From contig JADLED010000256.1 in NCBI GenBank assembly GCA_020846335.1, forward strand, positions 37,472 to 101,471: a stretch of 64,000 bases of DNA, read 5' to 3'. Of this stretch, positions 48,302-49,061 are shown in pieces. The first letter of the stretch is position 1. Every line of letters begins with the position of its first letter. Under the pieces are notes generated by a model. The model saw nothing but the letters and a program-made list of their open reading frames with translations, searched no databases and had not been told where the DNA came from. Position numbers and translations under genes: made by a program. The stretch is from Bacteroidia bacterium (GTDB lineage Bacteria; Bacteroidota; Bacteroidia; B-17B0; Aurantibacillaceae).

Positions 48302-48346
48302 AAAAAATCCGCCCCGATAGCTTTCGGGGCGGAGTGATTTTTTATG
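48302..48346 (-). terminator. Terminator-like hairpin after tRNA remnant 3, containing CCGCCCCGATAGCTTTCGGGGCGG
   Basis: Minus: ATCACTCCGCCCCGAAAGCTATCGGGGCGGATTTTTTT. Confidence 0.65.
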
Positions 48347-48410
48347 TGCTCCCCCCTGGGCTTCACGCCTCCGATTTCCTTCGGCGGATAAACTTCTCGC
48401 CAGGTTGGGT
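48347..48410 (-). pseudogene. Degenerate tRNA 3' fragment (remnant 3), interrupted by palindrome CGCCTCCGATTTCCTTCGGCGG
   Basis: TGCTCCC-CCTGGGCT matches 3' end of intact tRNA at 48844; also shares GGAGTGATTTTTTATGTGCTCCC with remnant 2. Confidence 0.55.
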
Positions 48411-48413
48411 AAA

Positions 48414-48447
48414 ATAAAAAACTCCGCTTGCGCGGAGTGATTTTTTA
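48414..48447 (-). terminator. Terminator-like hairpin after tRNA remnant 2
   Basis: ACTCCGC-ttg-GCGGAGT with T-run on minus strand. Confidence 0.6.
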
Positions 48448-48449
48448 TG

Positions 48450-48517
48450 TGCTCCCACCTGGGCTCGAACCAGGGACCCTCAGCCCCGATAGCTATCGGG
48501 GGAGTCTGATGCTCTAA
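48450..48517 (-). pseudogene. 3' partial tRNA(CAT) copy (remnant 2) with palindrome CCCCGATAGCTATCGGGG replacing anticodon-loop bases
   Basis: 35-bp identity to intact tRNA copy (GTGCTCCCACCTGGGCTCGAACCAGGGACCCTCAG) and then GAGTCTGATGCTCTAA; ATTAT replaced by the palindrome at 48484-48501. Confidence 0.85.
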
Positions 48518-48804
48518 GTGTACTTTAATTTAAGCTTTAACTGCATCTCAGGATATTTTATGAGATTGAAAATATAAACGCTGCTTTTCATCCGCTTTAT
48601 GTGCTTTTCTATTTTAAGTGCCTGAGAATAGGTTTCACATTCTATAGCTAATACTAAGCGCCAGTCTTCTGCTTTTGCTGTAAACCTATTCTCACCATAT
48701 TCGTGAGCATTGTGTTTCTTAATCCTTGACTCCAAATCCTGTTGACAAGCACCTATGTAATGACATTGAAGTTTTTCACTATACAATATGTAACAACAAA
48801 TCAT
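48514..48804 (-). CDS. Small GIY-YIG endonuclease, tRNA-associated
   Basis: MICCYILYSEKLQCHYIGACQQDLESRIKKHN...SQALKIEKHIKRMKSSVYIFNLI: GIY-YIG motif, conserved Arg and Glu positions; track ORF 48514..48852 extends into the tRNA so ATG at 48804 is preferred. Confidence 0.85.
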   Translation of the reverse strand: MICCYILYSEKLQCHYIGACQQDLESRIKKHNAHEYGENRFTAKAEDWRLVLAIECETYSQALKIEKHIKRMKSSVYIFNLIKYPEMQLKLKLKYT

Positions 48805-48807
48805 GGT

Positions 48808-48842
48808 ACAAAAAAAACCCCGGAATATTTCTCCGGGGTTCA
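48808..48842 (-). terminator. Terminator hairpin immediately 3' of the tRNA
   Basis: Minus: AACCCCGGAG-aaatatt-CCGGGGTTTTTTTT. Confidence 0.75.
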
Positions 48843-48843
48843 G

Positions 48844-48917
48844 TGCTCCCACCTGGGCTCGAACCAGGGACCCTCAGATTATGAGTCTGATGCTCTAACC
48901 GGCTGAGCTATAGGAGC
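48844..48917 (-). tRNA. tRNA-Met (CAT anticodon; tRNA-Ile2 with modified C34 not excluded)
   Basis: GCTCCTATAGCTCAGCCGGTTAGAGCATCAGACTCATAATCTGAGGGTCCCTGGTTCGAGCCCAGGTGGGAGCA folds as full cloverleaf. Confidence 0.92.
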
Positions 48918-48968
48918 GGTTAGTTTTTTGGCTTACGCCTATTTCAAGTTCTTCATCCAAACTTCAAC

Positions 48969-49061
48969 TCCGATAATTTTCGGAAGAGTTTGATGCTCCC
49001 TGCCTGCCGTTGCTCCGGCCTGCGCGACGGCAGGCAGGTAACCGGCTGAGCTATAGGAGCG
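48969..49061 (-). pseudogene. 5' partial tRNA(CAT) copy (remnant 4) interrupted by 40-bp palindrome and by TCCGATAATTTTCGGA
   Basis: CGCTCCTATAGCTCAGCCGGTTA | CCTGCCTGCCGTCGCGCAGGCCGGAGCAACGGCAGGCAGG | GAGCATCAAACTCT on minus strand. Confidence 0.8.
48999..49038. repeat. Palindromic element CCTGCCTGCCG...CGGCAGGCAGG inside tRNA remnant
   Basis: Near-perfect 11+ bp inverted repeat; splits GATGCTC|TAACCGG of the tRNA. Confidence 0.85.

Follow-up and report, generated by a model that had tools for sequence, protein, structure and literature searches.

The question raised by this locus is why a perfect 18-bp palindrome, CCCCGATAGCTATCGGGG, should stand at 48484-48501 in the middle of a tRNA gene. 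An earlier reading made from the sequence alone had placed it exactly at the position of the anticodon loop, with the flanks kept, and this is borne out. The palindrome is flanked by CCCTCAG and GAGTCTGATGCTCTAA, while the intact tRNA-Met gene nearby (anticodon CAT) reads CCCTCAG-ATTAT-GAGTCTG at the same site, so that ATTAT has been replaced. The split and intact copies are 100% identical over 35 nt on one side. In the tRNA sense, full copies of the pattern retain positions 1-35 and 41-75, and positions 36-40 (ATAAT, which includes two of the anticodon bases) are exchanged for the palindrome. The related palindrome that had been noticed at the equivalent site of a neighbouring copy, remnant 4, is indeed present there as TCCGATAATTTTCGGA; the D-loop of remnant 4 also holds a 40-bp imperfect palindrome.

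A chance origin of the palindrome is excluded by two counts. Allowing up to two mismatches, the expected count of the 14-mer core in the window (the whole stretch of 64,000 nucleotides that was analysed) is 0.08, and it was seen twice, both times in the tRNA cluster, and the 16-mer occurs at 12 places genome-wide, against none for the reversed control.

Layout of the insertion in tRNA-Met

The object is larger than the palindrome first noted, and is a minimal element consisting of a nuclease gene and a replacement tRNA. The palindromes at 48484-48501 and 48969-48984 are best read as the right and left junctions of a single insertion that splits an ancestral tRNA-Met gene. The sequence-only reading was right about site-specificity, and missed that its two palindromes are the ends of one insertion. 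The order of parts is left hairpin, linker, complete replacement tRNA, terminator, GIY-YIG nuclease gene, short tRNA piece and right hairpin (Table 1). On balance, the 18-bp palindrome is probably the right-hand junction of an element of about 0.5 kb, inserted in the anticodon loop of tRNA-Met and selfish, of a homing type.

Table 1. Features of the split tRNA-Met locus, listed from the 5' end of the tRNA; positions are those of the window.
Feature	Position	Strand	Remarks
5' half of split ancestral tRNA-Met, positions 1-21	49040-49060	-	23-bp repeat 49039-49061; promoter-like region just upstream
40-bp imperfect palindrome in D-loop of 5' half	48999-49038	.	
Remainder of tRNA-Met 5' half, to anticodon (GAGCATCAAACTC)	48986-48998	-	
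Left junction hairpin TCCGATAATTTTCGGA, anticodon loop	48969-48984	.	
Linker, left junction to replacement tRNA	48918-48968	-	
Complete replacement (rescue) tRNA-Met, anticodon CAT	48843-48917	-	ARAGORN; Rfam tRNA, 69.8 bits
Terminator of replacement tRNA (CCCCGG..CCGGGG + T-run)	48810-48838	-	
GIY-YIG nuclease ORF, 96 aa from ATG, stop inside tRNA remnant	48514-48804	-	PF01541, E 4e-13, 49.8 bits, cut-off 22.6
Partial tRNA (positions 20-35) just inside right junction	48502-48517	-	
Right junction hairpin CCCCGATAGCTATCGGGG	48484-48501	.	
3' half of split tRNA-Met, positions 41-75	48449-48483	-	
Terminator of split tRNA	48422-48437	-	
Older 3' remnant (remnant 1), palindrome 48370-48388 in T-loop	48346-48409	-	
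Terminator of remnant 1, CCCGATAGCTTTCGGG in loop	48308-48333	-	

Further palindromes occur in the T-loop of remnant 1 and in the loop of its terminator, where CCCGATAGCTTTCGGG replaces the TTGC of the homologous terminator of the split tRNA.

Within the same genus, tRNA-Met and a HAD-type gene are often arranged head-to-head, and this gives an anchor for position. The tRNA-Met 5' half begins 70 nt from the HAD-side anchor in the window, compared with 67-97 nt for the intact tRNA-Met of element-free relatives (L278, L286, L288 and L298-L300, with one clean tRNA each), and it therefore occupies the ancestral position of the tRNA; the empty-site evidence for the window locus is thus positional. 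The replacement tRNA-Met is identical to the tRNA-Met of one of these relatives (L286), with no recoding.

Two related structures were seen in passing. A second element in the window's own genome (L015, G000:C124:1-590) has a GIY-YIG ORF with a tRNA-Ala-like remnant on either side, both with TCCCGAACGTTTCGTTCGGGA as the anticodon loop, and a third remnant is also present. A T-arm remnant, CTGGGCGAGAAGTTTATCC..GGAAGCCCAGGTGGGAGCAC, with nested palindromes recurs at L273 (in genome G018), L278, L300 and 48346-48409 of the window, often in several copies and without a nuclease gene.

Filled and empty sites, and the nuclease lineages

One clean filled/empty pair was found, in two genomes of the same genus, of which G019 is empty and G021 is filled at tRNA-Val. 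The left flank of the two (4312 bp, 93.6% identity) stops precisely at tRNA position 28; the right flank (2465 bp, 83.6%) starts inside the tRNA and takes in the original terminator. Between them, G021 carries 470 bp in place of the 17-bp anticodon arm (positions 29-45), made up in order of TCCCGACTAAAAGTCGGGA, a linker, a complete tRNA-Val, a new terminator, a GIY-YIG ORF, a tRNA piece and TCCCGACTAAAGTCGGGA. The hairpins TCCCGACTAAAAGTCGGGA and TCCCGACTAAAGTCGGGA coincide with the insertion boundaries. The split halves match the empty site at 28/28 and 30/31 positions, and the only full-length match to tRNA-Val(tac) in G021 is the replacement copy inside the insertion. A recombinase-like gene found nearby, outside the insertion, is shared by the empty site. 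More pairs were sought for tRNA-Leu, and for tRNA-Met in G029, and in both cases the flanks were too diverged. Across 30 genomes of the genus the tRNA-Val locus is filled in six, and tRNA fragments lie near tRNA-Val in 6/6 genomes with the nuclease gene versus 4/24 without it (Fisher p 0.0004). The suggestion made from the window alone, of site-specific replacement and not random decay, is upheld by this clean pair and by junctions that recur in many genomes and tRNA families.

The catalytic domain of the nuclease is PF01541 GIY-YIG, and the listed members show the GIY/YIG, Arg and Glu motifs. When 100 relatives were searched with the window nuclease, 128 ORF records resulted. An intact tRNA lies directly upstream on the same strand in 80 of them, mostly at a distance of 30-60 bp, and tRNA sequence is present within 350 bp of 124, against 2/26 for the top-scoring GIY-YIG genes of other subfamilies. 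The top PF01541 matches had been tried as a proxy for the element, and were rejected as being mostly from a different, tRNA-free subfamily; they served as the control instead.

The targeted tRNAs include Met, Val, Leu (several anticodons), Ala, Asn, Asp, Arg, Pro, His, Lys and Ser. The split loop is that of the anticodon arm for the Met, Val, Ala, Asn and Leu-tag lineages, the T-loop for Pro, His, Lys, a second Val lineage and Leu-caa, and the D-loop in single Arg and Pro cases. A tree of 102 nuclease proteins, which is short (85 columns) with many forks open, contains 23 changes of tRNA label versus 69.8 when labels are shuffled, and 0/200 shuffles were as low. The Met, Val and Leu clades contain other host families, and the main Asn clade is drawn from three families. 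The nuclease lineages track tRNA identity and not the host.

No known defence, phage or NCBI protein family matched the nuclease, and no solved structure was found to match it by sequence; a single-sequence structure prediction was of low confidence (pLDDT 45). The C-termini of many of these nucleases (L193, L203, L239, L229) are a translated tRNA remnant, for example SAGSEHPD or AQLVRVPHVRD, which may mislead annotation.

The same structures are seen in a single-contig genome (G001), including about ten tandem 5' halves of 89 bp at L193 and L346, and an assembly artefact is therefore not their cause. The 89-bp unit (about 1880-2750 at L193) comprises a promoter, tRNA-Val positions 1-28 and a hairpin, and the units lie directly upstream of the intact tRNA; they could reflect repeated insertions or unequal recombination. 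At some loci (L175, L035) the terminator that follows the intact tRNA is near-identical to the one that follows the remnant, which also fits local duplication. Automatic comparison detected no downstream remnant at 33 of 73 loci, partly through contig ends and strict scoring. One locus (L040, in G051) is a dense tRNA array with palindromes within several defective tRNAs, and is possibly phage-derived. Copies of the element were looked for in phage and plasmid records and none matched, and a phage or plasmid vehicle was rejected on this ground.

Junction hairpins, dispersed palindromes and rival explanations

The junctions of the tRNA-Val elements nearly always read GAGCA[TCCCG...CGGGA]GGGTC. 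The inner stem varies, with A-T or C-G at pair 6 and C-G or T-A at pairs 7 and 8, and pairing is kept. In tRNA-Asn elements from three host families, one junction carries three different palindromes. Hairpins that vary and yet remain paired at a fixed junction indicate either that the hairpin has a conserved function or that a single site has undergone replacement repeatedly.

Palindromes are also dispersed. The sequence CCCGAWAGCTWTCGGG occurs in 44/100 related genomes, in up to 116 copies, versus one control site across all of them. Genomes with more nuclease genes tend to have more palindromes (rho 0.60 overall, 0.67 within the genus, and 0.56 there once genome size is taken into account). 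It had been proposed that hairpin or anticodon loops might be preferred targets generally. Support for this general claim is weak. Although 15/99 distinct dispersed sites adjoin tRNA-like sequence versus 2/154 random sites, palindrome sites away from tRNAs have a flanking stem of ≥5 bp in 10/74 cases versus 5.2 expected (11/500 shuffles were as high), and most dispersed copies are therefore not at a hairpin tip. A preference of all palindromes for hairpin tips was accordingly rejected as the main cause, the excess being modest. The palindromes and the nuclease are linked, but hairpin loops are not the general target.

Several composite sites were noted. One remnant (L188) has palindromes in its D-, anticodon and T-loops. 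At L005 (G000:C70:2347) the palindrome CCCGATAGCAATCGG lies inside another palindrome-like repeat, CCCTGAGCGAA^GTCGAAGGG. Near the nuclease genes of L268 and L189, terminator hairpins have TCCCGATAGCAATCGGGA or TCCCGATAACTATCGGGA in their loops, and in G031 (L135-L138, L144, L146) another repeat family (..AGTGAAGTTAAAATAAATTACGCAAAAGCA) recurs in fusion with the same palindrome, the joins lying at similar positions.

These observations bear on what moves. The GIY-YIG protein might act like a transposase that recognises terminal hairpins and inserts either the whole unit or a solo hairpin into DNA hairpin loops, and the dispersed palindromes would then be minimal non-autonomous copies. Hairpins at both junctions, palindromes in D-, T- and terminator loops as well, the correlation of counts and the excess at hairpin tips all speak for such transposition. 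We nevertheless regard it as unlikely, given that most dispersed palindromes are away from hairpin tips, that only 4 of the 128 nuclease ORFs have no tRNA sequence nearby, unlike a free transposon, and that one genome (G055) has 116 palindromes and no nuclease genes of the window type.

A second explanation, that the palindromes are an independent REP-like family landing in the loops of decaying tRNA copies, with the nuclease gene as an incidental neighbour, draws on the many palindromes at non-tRNA places and on their occurrence in 11/47 genomes without the nuclease subfamily. It is more doubtful still, because the junctions fall at identical positions in different genomes and families, the insertion is bounded by its left and right hairpins, and tandem arrays of otherwise intact tRNA halves contradict slow decay.

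It is very improbable that the hairpin-bearing tRNA-like halves are functional RNAs (decoys, regulators or processing signals) with hairpin pairing under selection. The covarying pairs 6-8 of the tRNA-Val hairpin would agree with this, as would the promoter-like TTTG..TATTTTTGC retained by upstream halves, which are probably on the transcript of the intact tRNA; however, the truncation of the halves differs between genomes, many are promoterless halves from the 3' side, and such halves are absent from most relatives.

Tandem duplication and random decay of tRNA genes, with palindromes arising by chance, would agree with the tandem repetition of some units (the 89-bp unit of L193; L053), but is already refuted by the filled/empty pair and by pattern controls, in which a palindrome followed by a T-arm was found in 11/100 relatives (control 0) and in 71/299 genomes of the phylum (4 control matches), counts that are upper bounds, as some matches may be ordinary tRNAs, such as the repeated TCCCGACTGTCTCTCGGGA.

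Proposed mechanism, known systems and significance

The element inserts into the anticodon arm, supplies a replacement copy, is bounded by junction hairpins, is polymorphic between genomes and belongs to lineages bound to their targets. From this we infer that the nuclease cleaves its target and homes. It would cut an uninvaded tRNA gene in the anticodon loop (or in the T or D loop in other lineages), and the break would be repaired from an invaded copy, with the near-invariant tRNA halves serving as homology, so that the element is copied in. Such homology could also allow spread between species. The replacement tRNA would keep the host alive, and the hairpins would make the split site uncuttable. 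Later recombination between two 5' or two 3' halves would remove one side, which would explain remnants that are 5'-only or 3'-only and those without a nuclease gene. Palindromes in other remnant and terminator loops are taken as additional insertions by the same families of dispersed palindromes. The mechanism has a weak point: the split tRNA copy has lost its anticodon arm or loop and the replacement retains an identical one, and since the replacement is identical to the uninvaded gene, the nuclease should cut the replacement too.

The proposed homing element has several known relatives. The Seg proteins of phage T4 are free-standing GIY-YIG homing endonucleases, of which SegB lies between tRNA genes, and they show intronless homing (PMC2988022). 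As with these, a small GIY-YIG gene lies beside tRNA genes, with presence/absence polymorphism and target-linked lineages; a homing-class catalytic domain, presence and absence at the same locus, and target-specialised lineages that cross host families are all found here. Unlike T4 Seg, the element is found in bacterial chromosomes and interrupts the tRNA gene itself; it brings along a complete replacement tRNA, each of its junctions bears a hairpin, and its cleavage activity is presumed.

Genomic islands with tyrosine integrases insert in tRNA genes by crossover in the anticodon loop or T-loop region, restoring the target and leaving a displaced fragment (PMC4383910). Here too the target tRNA is split and restored and a displaced fragment is left at the ends, but the element is only about 0.5 kb, it carries a whole tRNA, and its junction is a new hairpin and not an uninterrupted repeat. 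No tyrosine or serine integrase was found inside the element, where the sole protein gene found is the GIY-YIG gene. An Rfam search of three element loci found the intact tRNA and no intron family, and a group I intron in the tRNA anticodon loop was set aside on that basis.

Synthetic cleave-and-rescue and home-and-rescue drives place a nuclease and a working substitute for an essential gene together in a single cassette (PMC7951863, PMC7968924). The element makes the same pairing, but is natural and prokaryotic, and its rescue copy is not recoded, as seen from the window tRNA-Met and the empty-site copy of L286. REP sequences with RAYT (Y1 HUH) enzymes are another case of short dispersed palindromes linked to a nuclease gene. 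The resemblance lies in that link; in the present element the enzyme is GIY-YIG and not Y1 HUH, and the palindromes are at tRNA loop junctions.

None of the systems compared has the same set of parts, and no description of elements combining GIY-YIG, tRNA halves and palindromes was found in the open-licence literature. Elements of this sort, each associated with a single tRNA type, are present across the bacterial class and look like selfish elements of a kind not yet described. More tentatively, these may be natural, phylum-wide minimal selfish elements (a nuclease of about 90 aa and a rescue tRNA, in about 0.5 kb) that destroy and replace essential tRNA genes, with one nuclease lineage per tRNA type and a hairpin scar where the anticodon arm had been, and may represent a novel category of mobile element, from which many of the dispersed short palindromes in these genomes would derive.

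Whether more members of the GIY-YIG superfamily act as molecular parasites was left undecided by a survey of that superfamily (PMC1564403). The present subfamily is tiny, stand-alone and tied to tRNA genes by type, and the empty-site pair makes the parasite question directly testable. The junction hairpins are a readable scar from which past invasions can be mapped. If homing is true, the element would be the naturally occurring equivalent of cleave-and-rescue drives, with essential bacterial tRNA genes as its targets, and would account for tRNA gene fragments, tandem arrays of tRNA halves and some of the short palindromic repeats in the phylum.
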